DNA from: TM7 phylum sp. oral taxon 348
GTDB taxonomy: Bacteria > Patescibacteriota > Saccharimonadia > Saccharimonadales > Saccharimonadaceae
DNA: 64,000 bases
Reading direction: 5' to 3'
NCBI GenBank assembly: GCA_007845485.1
Contig: SDRW01000002.1
Coordinates: 124,001-188,000, forward strand
In this document: in pieces, positions 27,556 through 61,993 of the stretch
Numbering within the stretch: position 1 is the stretch's first letter
How the letters are laid out: each line of letters begins with the position of its first letter
Made by a program: the position numbers and the translations under genes
Notes under the pieces: generated by a model
Databases searched by the model: none
Told to the model about the DNA's origin: nothing
Seen by the model: the letters and a program-made list of their open reading frames with translations, nothing else

Positions 27556-28365
27556 TTACTCTGTAATTCCTGCAGAGATAGCCTCTAGCGGTTTACTTGG
27601 ATTCCATAAGTAGTACACCGCCATTACGCTAGCTGTATTACCGCGCCATATCTTTAAGGGCTGGGTCCACTCCATCGTTATAACTTTGCCTCTGTTGGCT
27701 ATTATTATAGTATCTTTATGTAAAGTAGCAATTGTTACTGGGTATGTTACTGTAAATTTATGTAGAGAATCAACAAATTGCAGAAGCTGCATACTAAATG
27801 TCAGAATTTTAGGATAATATACACTACGGAACAGTTTTTGGACTTGCGCAAAACTAGCTACAAAAAGCGTATTTTTACGTTCTAAAATTTGGTTATGGCT
27901 AGATGAAATCAAGTCAATTGCGTCTCTGGTGAGTATTAGCACCCCCTTGTAATCATGTATAAAATCATCATAAACTATTGCGGTTTCGCTGCTTCTACCA
28001 GCATCGCCAATTAATAGAATGCCATTTGCCCACTCTGCTAAAGCGCGCATATTGGGTAAAGCATCACGGCTTAGACTACCGCTTAAGTTACTTGGTGCAA
28101 AATGTGCCTCTGTAATATTAGTTGGGATGCTCTTTTTTAATACATCGGGCAATAAAATACGAGCCTCGCCTATGCCTGTTTTTAATGCTGTGCTATAACT
28201 TTCAGCTACGCCAGCAAAGCCTAATTTATTTCCACCAATTATACCTAATCTACCTGATTGTTCTCGGCGCTCGGGCTTATTCCATAAAATATCTGTAAAA
28301 ATTGGTTCGCCTGGTTTTTGGATTTGCCAAAAGGGAAATTGTTGCATAATAATCCTAAATATCAA
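27556..28365 (-). CDS. YjeF C-terminal/NAD(P)H-hydrate dehydratase-like protein
   Basis: A 269-residue protein of the ribokinase-like fold used by ADP-dependent NAD(P)HX dehydratases. GRLGIIGGNKLGFAGVAESY matches the family's first Gly-rich strand and ALKTGIGEARI the following helix. The usual C-terminal GTGD motif is not present; the end reads WRGNTASVMAVYYLWNP instead, so catalysis may be altered. The first Met overlaps the stop of the exonuclease gene by 11 nt; Met7 would remove the overlap. Function in metabolite repair is tentative. Confidence 0.5.
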   Translation of the reverse strand: MIFRIIMQQFPFWQIQKPGEPIFTDILWNKPERREQSGRLGIIGGNKLGFAGVAESYSTALKTGIGEARILLPDVLKKSIPTNITEAHFAPSNLSGSLSRDALPNMRALAEWANGILLIGDAGRSSETAIVYDDFIHDYKGVLILTRDAIDLISSSHNQILERKNTLFVASFAQVQKLFRSVYYPKILTFSMQLLQFVDSLHKFTVTYPVTIATLHKDTIIIANRGKVITMEWTQPLKIWRGNTASVMAVYYLWNPSKPLEAISAGITE

Positions 28366-29152
28366 TTGTTATACTGACTGGGCAGTGATCACTCCCCATA
28401 ATATCTGGGTGAATTTGTGCTTCTGTTATTTTATTTGCTAGCTTTTCCGATGCCAGCCAATAGTCTATCCTCCAGCCTATATTTCTGGCTCTGGCATTTG
28501 CCCAGTGTGTCCACCAACTATAATAACCATTACCTTTTGTAAAAATTCTAAAAGTGTCTTTAAATCCTGATTGAATAAAAGCATCAAATCCCGCCCGTTC
28601 TTCATTTGTAAATCCATGTTTACCAATATTTGGTTTGGGGTTTGCTAAGTCATCTTCTGTATGGGCTACATTAAGATCGCCGCAAAAAAGTACTGGTTTT
28701 ATAGATTCAAGTTTTTTCATGTATTCAAGCCAAGCTTTATCCCATTTTTGGTGGCGTAATTGTAAACGACTTAAATCACCTTTGCTATTGGGAGTGTAGA
28801 CCGTTGCCACGATAAAATTATCAAACTCTGCTACAATTATTCTACCCTCATTGTTTGGATTGCCATAATCATCTTGATCTAGATTATATTTTTTAACTAT
28901 ATCTTCAGGGAAATCAAGCCAAATATTAAGCGGTTTAGCTTTGCTAAAGATTGCCGTTCCGCTATATCCTGCTCGTTCGGCGCTATTCCATATTTCAAAA
29001 TAATCTGGTAGATCAATCTCGACTTGATTTTTCTTGGCTTTAGTTTCTTGTAGACACAATATATCTGGTTGATGCTCGCTAATAAAAGGTAAAAAAGTAC
29101 CTTTTTTAATAACAGCACGAATTCCATTTACATTCCAAGAGTATAATCTCAT
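28355..29152 (-). CDS. xth: Exodeoxyribonuclease III / AP endonuclease
   Basis: About 265 residues with the family motifs in order: YSWNVNGIRA, CLQETKAKKNQ (metal-binding Glu), GYSGTAIFSK, CGDLNVAHTEDDL, WRIDYWLASE and the terminal GSDHCPVSITID with catalytic Asp-His. It cleaves abasic sites and degrades DNA 3' ends during base-excision repair. The ATG at 29152 follows TGT-TATAAT by 6 nt (29159-29164), predicting a leaderless mRNA. Confidence 0.94.
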   Translation of the reverse strand: MRLYSWNVNGIRAVIKKGTFLPFISEHQPDILCLQETKAKKNQVEIDLPDYFEIWNSAERAGYSGTAIFSKAKPLNIWLDFPEDIVKKYNLDQDDYGNPNNEGRIIVAEFDNFIVATVYTPNSKGDLSRLQLRHQKWDKAWLEYMKKLESIKPVLFCGDLNVAHTEDDLANPKPNIGKHGFTNEERAGFDAFIQSGFKDTFRIFTKGNGYYSWWTHWANARARNIGWRIDYWLASEKLANKITEAQIHPDIMGSDHCPVSITIDI

Positions 29153-29193
29153 ATCCAAATTATAACAGAACTTCGTAGATTGATACTACATAC

Positions 29194-29307
29194 TTGACTT
29201 ATATGTTATAAAGTTGTAGTATAGAGAATGGGTTTGCAAAAAGCTAGCCCAGTACTTTCCGATTTGAAAGCAATAACTAACTATTGCTTTCCCTGTTGTT
29301 TAAGGAT
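29194..29307 (+). promoter_or_regulatory. Promoter and structured leader, copy 1
   Basis: TTGACT (29194-29199), 17-nt spacer, TAGTAT (29217-29222). The leader begins GGGTTTGCAAAAAGCTA at 29230 and forms a perfect 10-bp hairpin, GAAAGCAATA (29266-29275) with TATTGCTTTC (29282-29291), then CCCTGT and the ribosome-binding AAGGAT. The same arrangement is repeated at 29722-29836. Confidence 0.75.
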
Positions 29308-29313
29308 ATGATC

Positions 29314-29625
29314 ATGTCTGATCTTAAAGTTCATGTTCATAACGTGAACGAACTCCTGAGTCCAAAAGGTGACACTATCTATTTGAAAGTCTCAGATTCT
29401 GAGAATGGAGATTCGGCGATCAAAACAATTATTTGCGAATTTGAATCATCGAATCATCACCAAAAAGATGGTGTAGTAACACTTAAGCCTATTGAGAGCC
29501 CTGAATGGTGGAAACGTCCTCGTTCTCCTCGCGTGCGAGTCAATACGAATGAAGAGTACGCTACCATTGAAGAGTCTCTCTTCACTCACGTCTTTAAGTA
29601 TGAACCTGCATCGGTTCTTGCTTAA
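29314..29625 (+). CDS. Hypothetical protein, member 1 of a leader-linked pair
   Basis: About 103 residues from ATG 29314, 8 nt after AAGGAT. It begins MSDLKVHVHNV and contains LKVSDSENGD and a C-terminal TIEESLFTHVFKYEPAS. The start (KVHVxN), the LKVSD block and the LFxxxFxYEPS end are shared with the following gene, so they are paralogues of different length. No signal peptide, membrane segment or known fold. Strong own promoter, conserved leader hairpin and strong terminator indicate an independently controlled, probably abundant product. Confidence 0.75.
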   Translation: MSDLKVHVHNVNELLSPKGDTIYLKVSDSENGDSAIKTIICEFESSNHHQKDGVVTLKPIESPEWWKRPRSPRVRVNTNEEYATIEESLFTHVFKYEPASVLA

Positions 29626-29647
29626 AGTATAAATCCTAAACCACATA

Positions 29648-29684
29648 CCCCGCTGTTTTTTTGTACAGCGGGGTTTTCTTTTTT
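29648..29684 (+). terminator. Strong Rho-independent terminator, copy 1
   Basis: CCCCGCTGT (29648-29656) pairs with ACAGCGGGG (29665-29673) and is followed by TTTTCTTTTTT. Confidence 0.92.
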
Positions 29685-29721
29685 GTCCCATTATTTCTTG
29701 GAATCTTTATAGATTGGTAGT

Positions 29722-29836
29722 TTGACTTATAAACATAAGTATGCTAATATAAAAAGTGGGTTTGCAAAAAGCTAACCTCGTCCTTTCCAATTTGAAAGCA
29801 ATAAATTTTGCTTTCCCTGTCATGTTAGGATTTGCC
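29722..29836 (+). promoter_or_regulatory. Promoter and structured leader, copy 2
   Basis: TTGACT (29722-29727), 17-nt spacer, TAATAT (29745-29750). The leader repeats GGGTTTGCAAAAAGCTA and has an 8-bp hairpin, GAAAGCAA (29794-29801) with TTGCTTTC (29808-29815), then CCCTGT and TTAGGAT. Loop and flanks differ from copy 1 while the stem and its ends are kept. Confidence 0.75.
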
Positions 29837-30271
29837 ATGTGTAACGGCAAACTTTTCAAGGTCCATGTTCGTAATATGCGTGACTTCAAGAAGGCTTGTG
29901 AGTGGCATCGTAACTATCGGCTCGGCTGTGCTGATGCCAAACCTCTTCCAAGCGAGTGTAAGCGCTTTCGTTTGAAAGTGTCTGATGCTGGGAAAAAGTT
30001 AGATCTTGAAGAAGAAACTATTAATTTAGATTTGCTTCAAGATTTTGGTTCCATGTTTAATCTTAATGAACGTGTTTACCATAATGTTTCCCCTAAAGTA
30101 ACTCGTAATTCCTATGGTTTGAACCAAGGTCATGAGGGTGACTTTCGAGTGAAGGTCTTACCAGAGGATGGTTTTGCCTATATTGGGCGAGATTTGTTCT
30201 CACGTACCTTTTGCTATGAGCCTTCGCTGTCGCAATCGATCGATTCTTTGACCGATATCAACAAATCCTAA
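29837..30271 (+). CDS. Hypothetical protein, member 2 of a leader-linked pair
   Basis: About 144 residues from ATG 29837, 5 nt after TTAGGAT. It contains LFKVHVRNMRDF, FRLKVSDAGKKLDL, FRVKVLPEDG and a C-terminal GRDLFSRTFCYEPS, matching the preceding gene at both ends with an insertion in the middle. No recognised domain or export signal. The frame extends upstream to 29756 but that would cover the conserved leader hairpin, so the shorter form is preferred. Confidence 0.75.
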   Translation: MCNGKLFKVHVRNMRDFKKACEWHRNYRLGCADAKPLPSECKRFRLKVSDAGKKLDLEEETINLDLLQDFGSMFNLNERVYHNVSPKVTRNSYGLNQGHEGDFRVKVLPEDGFAYIGRDLFSRTFCYEPSLSQSIDSLTDINKS

Positions 30272-30279
30272 TCCACATA

Positions 30280-30312
30280 CCCCGCTGTTTTTGTACGGCG
30301 GGGGTTTTCTTT
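30280..30312 (+). terminator. Strong Rho-independent terminator, copy 2
   Basis: CCCCGCTGT (30280-30288) pairs with ACGGCGGGG (30295-30303) with one G-U pair, followed by GTTTTCTTT. Nearly identical to the terminator of the paralogue. Confidence 0.9.
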
Positions 30313-30330
30313 ACTTTAATATTAAATGTA

Positions 30331-30813
30331 TTATCTAAATTTTAAAATTCGCTTAGCGTCGCGTTCAATGTCGCGGCGTTTAATGGTTTCGCGTTTATCA
30401 AATTTCTTTTTTCCCTTACCCAGTGAAATTACTAATTTAATAAATTTGCCGCCAGTTAACATTTTTATCGGTACAATCGTAAAGCCCTGTTGTTTCTGTT
30501 CTATTAGATTGTTTAGCTGTTTCCGCGATACTAATAATTTTTTTGGTTCGGTATCTACAGTTTTTTGATTGGCTTTGCCTCTTTCATTTAGCTTTATACT
30601 AAATGATGCGTTATTTAACCAAAGCTCGCCACCGCGGATTGTGGCAAAAGCGCCTTTTAATTGAACGTGACCGTCACGAGCAGCGCGCACTTCACGGCCG
30701 TTAAGAACCATGCCAGCTACAATCTCCTCTTCAAGGTGATAATCAAACTTAGCCCGCTTATTAACAATCTGCGGGATGATGGGCTTTTTATCTTGCTTAG
30801 ATTTTTTTGCCAT
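30331..30813 (-). CDS. smpB: SsrA-binding protein
   Basis: A 160-residue basic protein. NKRAKFDYHLEEEIVAGMVL, NGREVRAARDGHVQLKGAF and the basic tail KGKKKFDKRETIKRRDIERD are the conserved SmpB blocks. It brings tmRNA to stalled ribosomes in trans-translation. I did not find a convincing tmRNA gene in the window. TATAAT lies 10 nt before the ATG. Convergent with the second leader-linked gene and divergent from pyrH. Confidence 0.95.
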   Translation of the reverse strand: MAKKSKQDKKPIIPQIVNKRAKFDYHLEEEIVAGMVLNGREVRAARDGHVQLKGAFATIRGGELWLNNASFSIKLNERGKANQKTVDTEPKKLLVSRKQLNNLIEQKQQGFTIVPIKMLTGGKFIKLVISLGKGKKKFDKRETIKRRDIERDAKRILKFR

Positions 30814-50250: not shown

Positions 50251-50390
50251 ATAATTTAAAGAGAAAGCCAAGTGAGGCGCACATCTCAGTATAAACTGAG
50301 AGCTTTCTCTCGATGGAATCAAATGAGCAATAAATATATTATGATTCCATACCGCCTGATAGAACAATGAAAAATCAGACGCCTAGCGGT

Positions 50391-50460
50391 TGGCGGATAG
50401 TGCGGGAGTCGAACCCGCATCTTTAGTCTGCAGACTCAAAGCTCCCCTAGGAAACTATCC
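50391..50460 (-). ncRNA. tRNA-like element with canonical T-arm and acceptor but no normal anticodon arm
   Basis: A 70-nt fold. GGATAGT pairs perfectly with ACTATCC, followed by G and an encoded CCA. The T-arm GCGGGTTCGACTCCCGC is canonical. Between them lie only 35 nt (about 41 are usual): a short remnant in the D-arm position and a hairpin CTTTGAGTC-TGCA-GACTAAAG with one bulged G and a four-base loop, where a seven-base anticodon loop should be. TGCA could mimic a Cys anticodon GCA, but discriminator G argues against tRNA-Cys. Confidence 0.55.
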
Positions 50461-50573
50461 TTACCCGCTCTAGAGCAGGATTTAAACCAAAGCATATGCT
50501 AGTCAAAGATCTTTTCTATCCGATGGACTAACGTAGATGTATCTTCAGTAACTTAATAAGCTTCGTACATTAT

Positions 50574-50738
50574 CTACGCGATTGCCGCATTGGCAATAAT
50601 GGCTCCACGGATTCGAGATGTGCGTCGATTCTTGTCGCGTTTGTCTTCGCGCTCTTGGGTTTTAATAATATTCTCGCGCACTTTCTGATTGAGCTTGCAA
50701 ACTTCATCAAGCTCTTGCTGAAGTTCTTCGAGATTCAT
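50574..50738 (-). CDS. Small charged protein, 54 aa
   Basis: ATG at 50738 after GGAAAGGTGCC. It begins MNLEELQQELDEV, has a strongly charged helix (KTQEREDKRDKNRR) and ends in the alanine-rich IIANAAIA. It lies within the structured transcript, between the first small ORF and the tRNA-like fold. No known family. The clear ribosome-binding site supports translation. Confidence 0.45.
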   Translation of the reverse strand: MNLEELQQELDEVCKLNQKVRENIIKTQEREDKRDKNRRTSRIRGAIIANAAIA

Positions 50739-50784
50739 ATTAGGCACCTTTCCAGAATTAAATAATCAAAAACCAAAGTATGTG

Positions 50785-50955
50785 CTAGCCAAAAATCTTT
50801 TTCGCCCGACGGGCTTCAAAGTCAGCATTGCGTACACTTTGCATGGTTGAACCTTTGTCTACAAGACGCTGTTCTTCGGCCGTCCGATCTTTCGGCGACT
50901 TACGAGCAGCGGCAATATAGTCATCTTCGTTCCTTGATGGACCAAAAATTCCCAA
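50785..50955 (-). CDS. Small protein with TTG start, 56 aa
   Basis: TTG at 50955 preceded by GGAAGGTGAT; an in-frame stop lies just upstream. The product contains PSRNEDDYIAAARKSPKD and ends FEARRAKKIFG. The DNA around its stop is repeated in degenerate form near 50490-50540, suggesting a partial duplication. Unknown function. Confidence 0.4.
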   Translation of the reverse strand: MGIFGPSRNEDDYIAAARKSPKDRTAEEQRLVDKGSTMQSVRNADFEARRAKKIFG

Positions 50956-51132
50956 AAGATCACCTTCCTACTTACTAGTGAACGGTTTGTTAAGTGGGGC
51001 ATACTCAATAATATAGAGCACAAGTTATCACTGAGTATGCCCCAAGAACCAAATTGTACGCTTCCCCACATACAAAATGGTTCTTGCGAAATTACTTCCA
51101 GCTGCAAGGCTTTAAGTAACTCACGGTTATTA

Positions 51133-60640: not shown

Positions 60641-61887
60641 AATTAGAGAAAGACTTCGAGAGGTCGCCCGCACGGGCGGCTTTTGGGTTGGCGGCGCGCA
60701 GCGCCGACCAAGCGGTTTCAGGGGGTGATTTGATTTTACCGTCGCTGAAAGCGACGACGTTTTTATCTTTTAACAATAGGTTCGACCCGAATATGTCCAG
60801 CAATAGCACTTTTTGCGCGTCAAAATCCCGATTTTCAACGATTTTACAGATTGAACCTACTGTTAAAACCCAACGGCGCATGGGTTCGACCCACGCCGTA
60901 CCGCCACGCTCCAAACGAGCTAATTGCTCGTCAAAAGTTACTTACTGGCTCATCAACTCGGCTTTCTTTTCAGTGAATGTCTGTCGGTCAATCACTTGGT
61001 CGAGGTAACCATCTAGAAGTAACTTTTGTTTGGCGGTCAAATCGGCGACAAGTCGCCGTAAATCTTCACCATCAGACAGATTATGGCTACTTTCGGTGCG
61101 CTCGTCCGCGCCGTTCCATGACGTGCTGGCATTTGTCGCACAAAGATTTTGAGATAATCGTTGTATGTTCGCCTTTGTGCAGCTCGTCGTTATACATAAA
61201 ATAGCCGTAGTAAAAAGGATTTTTCAAGATCTTTTTTATACGATCATCTTTTATCTTATTGCCGCCGCGCTTGATCGCGCCCTTGCGCTTATTGTAGCGA
61301 CCGTCCGTCTTAACTCCATTGTCATACAGATATTGCGATATTTCGCTCATTGTCTTGTCACCCTGCGCGTACAGCTTAAAAGCCTCGGTAATTTTAGGCG
61401 CAACGCGCCTATCAAGCACAATCCGCTTGGTATTTTTGTTATTAATATAGCCAATCGGCGCAATGCCTGGCATTTCGCCGCGCCGAACCTTTGTCCGCAG
61501 CCCACGCTTGACATTTTCCGAGAGATTATCGACAAAGTGCTTGCTCTGGCTAAACTCCAGTGACAGCATATACTTGCCTTGCGGCGTGTTCTCAAACCAA
61601 AAGTGCGGGAACTTGAGATCGACAAGTATACCCTCATCAAGTAGATATAACAGCAAGCCGCTATCAACAGGGTTGCGCGACAATCGATCAGGTAGCCATG
61701 AAATTATACCGTCCGCCTCGCCGTATACTGTCAATAATTTGTTAAACTCCGCGCGACCTGGGCTAGCTGAGTCGTGTAGGCTCAGTCCCAACGACTGCCC
61801 GGGCAAGCCCGTGCTCGCCCCCCACCAGAAACACCCTTTGCGACTAAAAAGAAATTCGGCGGGGGGAAATCTCAAAAAATAAGGCAA
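60641..61887 (-). pseudogene. Decayed large serine recombinase
   Basis: Minus-strand pieces of one gene. The first (61887-61087) has the end of the resolvase domain (PGRAEFNKLL, DGIISWLPDRLSRNPVD), the recombinase domain (RRGEMPGIAPIGYINNKNTK, LKNPFYYGYFMYNDELHKGE) and the start of a zinc ribbon (CDKCQHVMERR). The catalytic-Ser N-terminus is missing. After a frameshift, LTAKQKLLLDGYLDQVIDR and a coiled-coil tail follow, with an in-frame TAA near 60950 before FDEQLARLERGG. The reading frame runs on into the antisense of tRNA-Gln. Recombination activity is lost. Confidence 0.8.
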
Positions 61888-61993
61888 AGGGTTTTTTCTG
61901 GTGGTTCGGCTGCCATTTCATGGCATGGGTGTTGATATTTTGAGAGTTCAGGAAAGTTGCCTAACAGTAAAGAATAATCTATAATATGTTAGC

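Follow-up and report, generated by a model that had tools for sequence, protein, structure and literature searches.

Bacteria with small genomes are rich in genes that lack relatives, and whether such genes are real and expressed is often unclear. The window analysed here, a stretch of 64,000 nucleotides from TM7 phylum sp. oral taxon 348, contains two neighbouring orphan genes with divergent coding sequences and closely similar non-coding ends. What keeps these ends alike, and what does that say about the genes between them? The original prediction, made from the sequence alone, took the retention of the whole non-coding frame as a sign of selection on an RNA control element. We examined the locus, its counterparts in related genomes and other orphan genes on the same contig.

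Results

Two self-contained cassettes in the gap between xth and smpB

Within 29194-30312, two monocistronic cassettes on the + strand (29194-29674 and 29722-30303) have promoter, leader, ribosome site and terminator in common. They occupy the gap between smpB and xth, on the opposite strand to both flanking genes, whose names come from reading of the sequence. The features are as follows.

27556-28365: carbohydrate-kinase-like gene
28355-29158, - strand: xth, exodeoxyribonuclease III-like flanking gene
29194-29222, + strand: promoter of gene 1, TTGACT-17-TAGTAT
29230-29250, + strand: P1 of leader 1, 5'-terminal hairpin GGGUUUGC-AAAAA-GCUAGCCC (MFE and centroid folds)
29255-29260, + strand: conserved CUUUCC of leader 1 (leader alignment)
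29266-29291, + strand: P2 of leader 1, hairpin GAAAGCAAUA-ACUAAC-UAUUGCUUUC, 10 bp
29302-29307, + strand: Shine-Dalgarno sequence AAGGAT of gene 1
29314-29625, + strand: gene 1, 103 aa orphan protein, ATG at 29314
29647-29674, + strand: intrinsic terminator of gene 1, CCCCGCTGT..CAGCGGGG
29722-29750, + strand: promoter of gene 2, TTGACT-17-TAATAT
29758-29778, + strand: P1 of leader 2, 5'-terminal hairpin GGGUUUGC-AAAAA-GCUAACCU
29783-29788, + strand: CUUUCC of leader 2 (leader alignment)
29794-29815, + strand: P2 of leader 2, hairpin, 8 bp
29825-29830, + strand: Shine-Dalgarno sequence TTAGGA (TTAGGAT) of gene 2
29837-30271, + strand: gene 2, 144 aa orphan protein, diverged paralogue of gene 1, ATG at 29837
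30280-30303, + strand: intrinsic terminator of gene 2, CCCCGCTGT..CGGCGGGG
30331-30813, - strand: smpB, flanking gene

All elements named in the original prediction (promoters, leader start, hairpin, CCCTGT, ribosome sites and terminators) were found where it had placed them. Each leader is about 80 nt long and starts with GGGTTTGCAAAAAGCTA, 7 nt past the -10 box, at the predicted 5' end. At this position, equally distant from the -10 box in both copies and set by a predicted start site, begins a hairpin that the original prediction had overlooked. This hairpin, P1, has the consensus GGGUUUGC-AAAAA-GCUA(G/A)CC(C/U) with 7/8 pairs in each copy, and is present in the MFE and centroid folds of both leaders. 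The second hairpin, P2, has the arms GAAAGCAA..TTGCTTTC in both leaders and is followed by CCCTGT, the ribosome site and the ATG. The cassettes close with strong terminators, and only seven of comparable strength exist across the 64-kb window. In a whole-genome search leader 2 matched leader 1 with E = 1.3e-16, and both leaders folded more stably than shuffled sequences (z = -3.6 and -2.8); these features are not due to chance.

The stem of P2 is retained and its loop differs, as had been claimed. By itself this observation is weak evidence, because a comparison of just two leaders shows almost no variation in P2 and only two changes in P1, both one-sided and both compatible with pairing.

Conservation follows the ends of the transcript

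The two leaders agree at 66/79 positions, the promoter spacers at 6/17, the DNA upstream of the promoters at 15/60 and the third positions of identical residues at 17/29. On these counts, which are small and come from one gene pair, identity is higher in the leader than in the promoter spacer (p = 1.4e-4) and higher than at the third positions of codons for unchanged residues (p = 0.01). The 3' ends are alike again from just before or at the stop codon through the terminator, the terminator region being about 90% identical, and the conserved blocks are bounded by the transcript ends and the coding borders. A recent copy or conversion tract would ignore such borders, and selection on the transcript ends is therefore the simplest reading. 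These results support the view that the untranslated mRNA ends are under selection and that the proteins diverge fast.

We also considered that the leader has no function and that recent recombination or gene conversion between the copies homogenised the flanks, leaving differences only in the coding parts. The similarity of the terminator regions is what such an event would produce, and recent copying does occur in this genome, as indicated by another pair of cassettes (cluster I, below) that is alike over 158 bp at 90%, promoter included. However, homogenised flanks should not leave the twins' promoter spacer and upstream DNA unconserved, nor are conversion tracts expected to end at functional borders, and we regard this explanation as very improbable. 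A very recent duplication is likewise contradicted by a protein identity of 29% and by the unconserved promoter spacer.

The twin genes encode real, paralogous orphan proteins

In agreement with the strong divergence originally noticed, the two proteins are about 29% identical, and their similarity exceeds that of shuffled sequences (local alignment z = 5.5, p = 0.002). Residues common to both include KVHV.N towards the start, LKVSD midway along the alignment and RV.V......A.I...LF...F.YEP towards the end. Different codons are used at 12/29 aligned identical residues (Met and Trp excluded), which indicates that the proteins are constrained. These results indicate that gene 1 and gene 2 are real and paralogous. 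The codons AGA, AGG, CTA and ATA are absent from both genes, a weak sign of good expression.

That neither protein matches a known family was supported by searches of Pfam, NCBIfam, PHROGs, PADLOC and PDB chains, none of which gave a match. Viral contigs contained no match to either protein, nor did plasmid and phage records searched with gene 2. No convincing relative was detected for gene 1 among 197 family genomes or for gene 2 among 100 relatives, where the best protein matches (E about 0.004-0.09 per genome) were mostly frames inside much larger ORFs. AlphaFold models of the two proteins had pLDDT values of 40 and 48, too poor for interpretation; the protein of gene 1 was beta-rich in its low-confidence model.

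No other genome searched contains the leader

A covariance model was built from both leader copies, which scored 113 and 103 bits against it. The best score elsewhere was 22 bits among 294 further family genomes and 26 bits among 392 further class-level genomes; the two sets overlap and contain an estimated 650 or so distinct genomes. The search that had been proposed for the leader across Saccharibacteria thus recovered only the two known loci when run over 295 family genomes and 393 class-level genomes, and the leader is confined to this species. Restriction to two loci, with no covariation and explained by a very recent duplication, had been named as refuting the prediction; the restriction was found, and the duplication is contradicted as described above.

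Weaker candidates were rejected. The six best weak family-level matches to the model lie inside or beside unrelated genes, the sole class-level match (G410) lies within an EamA-type transporter gene, and a two-mismatch leader match on contig C11 lies within a groEL-like gene. When the genome collection was searched with an exact 15-mer, more than 100 matches were scattered across phyla, as chance would produce. Chance was also taken to explain eight exact 17-mer matches in viral contigs, of which only one (L244) reached even E = 2.2 with the model.

The smpB-xth gap harbours unrelated orphans in related genomes

In many relatives smpB and xth adjoin in the same direction, 9-55 bp apart. In G001, the sister species and the only other genus genome compared, the gap contains two orphan ORFs with their own promoters and terminators, which have no detectable similarity to the twins and no leader in common with each other. 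One further unrelated orphan is present in the gap of G014; its protein showed no detectable similarity to the twins and had no match in the congener of G014. Neighbouring genes of the syntenic block are 46-85% identical between the two species, whereas the cassettes that occupy this gap are not related to each other; the cassettes therefore turn over much faster. The G001 genome has more terminator-closed ORFs in the same 20 kb, between the carbohydrate-kinase-like gene and xth and after pyrH.

A gap that is empty in many relatives invites the idea of acquired cargo, in which single foreign genes, each bringing a promoter and a terminator, settle in intergenic sites like phage morons or integron gene cassettes. 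Phage morons are orphan genes that stand singly where they are not expected, equipped with a promoter and a terminator, and the twins have this layout. The sites differ between the two species, and the GC3 of the cassette genes (0.35-0.40) lies above that of most neighbours (about 0.30), as this idea would have it. On the other hand, the phage, plasmid and viral collections gave no match, no integrase or attachment repeats were seen at the twins, and the members of an array are paralogous, which indicates local duplication. Unlike phage morons, the twins also stand outside any recognised prophage, as tandem paralogues for which no phage relatives were found. We therefore consider an origin as acquired cargo improbable.

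Similar packages recur in other orphan arrays

Contig C7 (257 kb), which includes the window, was surveyed in stretches, and a 339-kb sample of the sister species was added; the survey covered about 30% of the source genome, a draft of 19 contigs with 7.7% estimated contamination. Many strong terminators on C7 follow orphan-type ORFs. Two further arrays of orphan-type genes were found on C7, each with its own leader common to its members.

C7:53159-65000 (L207:14159 to L208:6400): cluster I, eleven orphan-type ORFs
C7:206.2-211.3 kb (L213:1-4800): cluster III, at least six ORFs

Cluster I leaders start with GAACCTTAAAA or a sequence close to it, roughly ten nt past the -10 box. Some form very long hairpins (-44 to -56 kcal/mol), and a 5' hairpin is not present in every one. 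No cluster I leader was detected in 197 other genomes with an exact pattern that recovers just 3/11 of its own copies. One gene of this array (C7:58134-59000; L207:19134-20000, L208:78-476) is seemingly split by an in-frame TAA after 135 codons, and the same frame stays open for about 150 codons beyond the TAA. Cluster I also encloses a 525 aa ORF (L208:579-2156) with a RelA/SpoT region above the Pfam cut-off, and an RNase H-like ORF follows it.

The leaders of cluster III have the layout hairpin, CTTGTACATTTC, AAGGAG. Several of its ORFs are membrane-like, with segments assigned by eye, and the terminators are near-identical. This array also encloses a gene for an AI-2E-type transporter, so named from reading of the sequence. 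Among six cluster I and three cluster III ORFs scanned, none passed the curated Pfam cut-off. Five cluster III leader hairpins have quite different stems, and nevertheless 39/40 cells are paired, with both-sided changes at 6/8 pairs; swapping arms between leaders cut pairing to 5.1/8 on average. The pairing count is biased towards pairing because the arms were chosen by eye as hairpins, but both-sided changes among leaders with a common linker remain telling. These results indicate that the hairpin of this array is kept through compensatory changes. Such stem maintenance in sibling families supports the general idea of the original prediction.

Paralogues were detectable within arrays (z = 10.5, 8.0, 7.3, 5.2 and 4.0), and none was clear between arrays. 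The sister species has its own diverged twin pair, with proteins of 170 and 206 aa that are 46% identical over 78 aa. Their leader hairpins, GUCGCCCC-GACU-GGGGUGGC and GUCACCCC-GGCU-GGGGUGAC, are fully paired; this shared hairpin does not stand at the very start of the leader. Those array ORFs of C7 that were compared locally had no match in the G001 sample. The package of the twins is therefore found again, with different leaders, in further orphan-type arrays both here and in the sister species. No literature on such arrays in Saccharibacteria was found within a limited library.

Some other sequences of the contig were recorded during the survey. Two ORFs of 56 and 57 aa in cassette-like style lie at 50574-51080 (- strand) of the window and are preceded by a 12-bp leader hairpin, GGGGCATACTCA..TGAGTATGCCCC. 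A tRNA-like stretch at 50387-50462 (- strand), with the end GCGGGTTCGACTCCCGCACTATCCGCCA and the closing GGATAGT, received no ARAGORN call and matched the 3' end of tmRNA weakly; it could represent either a degenerate tRNA or the end of a tmRNA. An inverted dispersed repeat links 61762-61960 of the window with C7:189107-189303 (83 bp at 98.8% within about 200 bp); it begins CCACCAGAAA and ends TTTCTGGTGG.

The leader as a possible control element

The conserved CUUUCC could pair alternatively with the GAAAG of P2 and replace P2 in both leaders. The leader might accordingly be a control element that co-regulates the twins, for example in host attachment or stress, either by way of an RNA or protein acting in trans or by switching from P2 to the CUUUC-GAAAG helix and back; the leader of each array would then be a private regulatory tag. 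The block CUUUCCRAUUUGAAAG is near-invariant though the best fold leaves its first part unpaired, and members of each array have a common leader (GAACCTTAAAA in cluster I, the hairpin plus CTTGTACATTTC in cluster III), as co-regulation predicts. The erp operons of Borrelia likewise have conserved 5' DNA in common, which serves their joint control (PMC9112904). Against this, the alternative helix has just 5 bp and P2 has 8-10 bp. No attenuator-type terminator is present in the leader, where P2 is followed by CCCUGU and no U-run. Masking of the ribosome site is not conserved, appearing in the fold of one copy only, and no Rfam covariance model came near its gathering score in 29150-30330. Of the original reading, selection on the untranslated RNA was supported by the identity differences and the block borders. 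Control by the leader is the main rival to our preferred reading, and we think it possible but rather unlikely.

Discussion

Our preferred reading, held with moderate confidence, is that the twins are cassettes for the expression of lineage-specific genes that evolve fast, and that their leader hairpins keep the mRNA stable and aid translation. The two self-contained cassettes would go back to an old tandem duplication in the smpB-xth gap. Each comprises one gene under a vegetative-type promoter, with a structured leader of some 80 nt and a ribosome site before it and a strong terminator behind it. P1 would shield the 5' end from 5'-end-dependent decay, P2 would hold the region before the ribosome site open independently of the coding sequence, and the terminator would seal the cassette against opposing smpB-xth transcription. 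Small lineage-specific proteins would thereby be produced strongly and steadily, possibly under common regulation, no matter how the coding sequence changes. The twins, one instance of a broader pattern of individually packaged genes that change fast in this genus, are probably built for strong, steady expression.

A 5' hairpin, a good ribosome site and a strong terminator together make a design suited to a long-lived and well-translated message, independent of the coding part. RNase J, whose action is 5'-end dependent, is encoded in the genome. Hairpins at the 5' end are known to stabilise mRNA in E. coli and B. subtilis, especially in bacilli (PMC3997798), and the hairpins of the twins may do likewise. 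The twins resemble the leaders of E. coli ompA and papA and of B. subtilis aprE in having a hairpin at the extreme 5' end, here a predicted one, and then a good ribosome site (PMC3997798). Unlike those stabilisers, the twins have a second hairpin near the ribosome site and an unrelated sequence. The idea does not extend to every array, since some cluster I leaders are without a 5' hairpin, and the conserved unpaired CUUUCCRAUUU block is unexplained by stabilisation alone.

In Borrelia burgdorferi, the erp loci comprise several family members per cell, which have highly conserved 5' DNA and polymorphic coding sequences and are co-expressed (PMC9112904). Like the erp operons, which encode Erp surface lipoproteins, the twins are paralogues with a conserved 5' region and a divergent coding sequence, a pattern that clusters I and III show as well, as does the pair of the sister species. 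The two systems differ in that erp operons reside on cp32 prophage episomes, whereas the twins are tandem and chromosomal. The erp genes carry an operator of some 145 bp that lies upstream of their start site, whereas the conserved part of the twins is the transcribed leader and the 3' end. Erp proteins are lipoproteins with conserved N-termini, and no lipoprotein signal was noticed in the twins.

A wider proposal, which we advance as speculation with the chances against it, is that the genus keeps arrays of fast-diversifying orphan genes, individually packaged and with a private, RNA-conserved leader per array. Such arrays would form a diversity-generating system, for example in host contact or conflict, with the leader as a shared handle. 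A role in contact or conflict with the host would fit the fast protein change.

The twins provide a testable case in which the mRNA ends are held by selection and the protein is free to vary. Their conserved ends reveal orphan genes as real, individually packaged transcription units in a recurring pattern, and untranslated regions offer a way to find further orphan genes where protein comparison fails.
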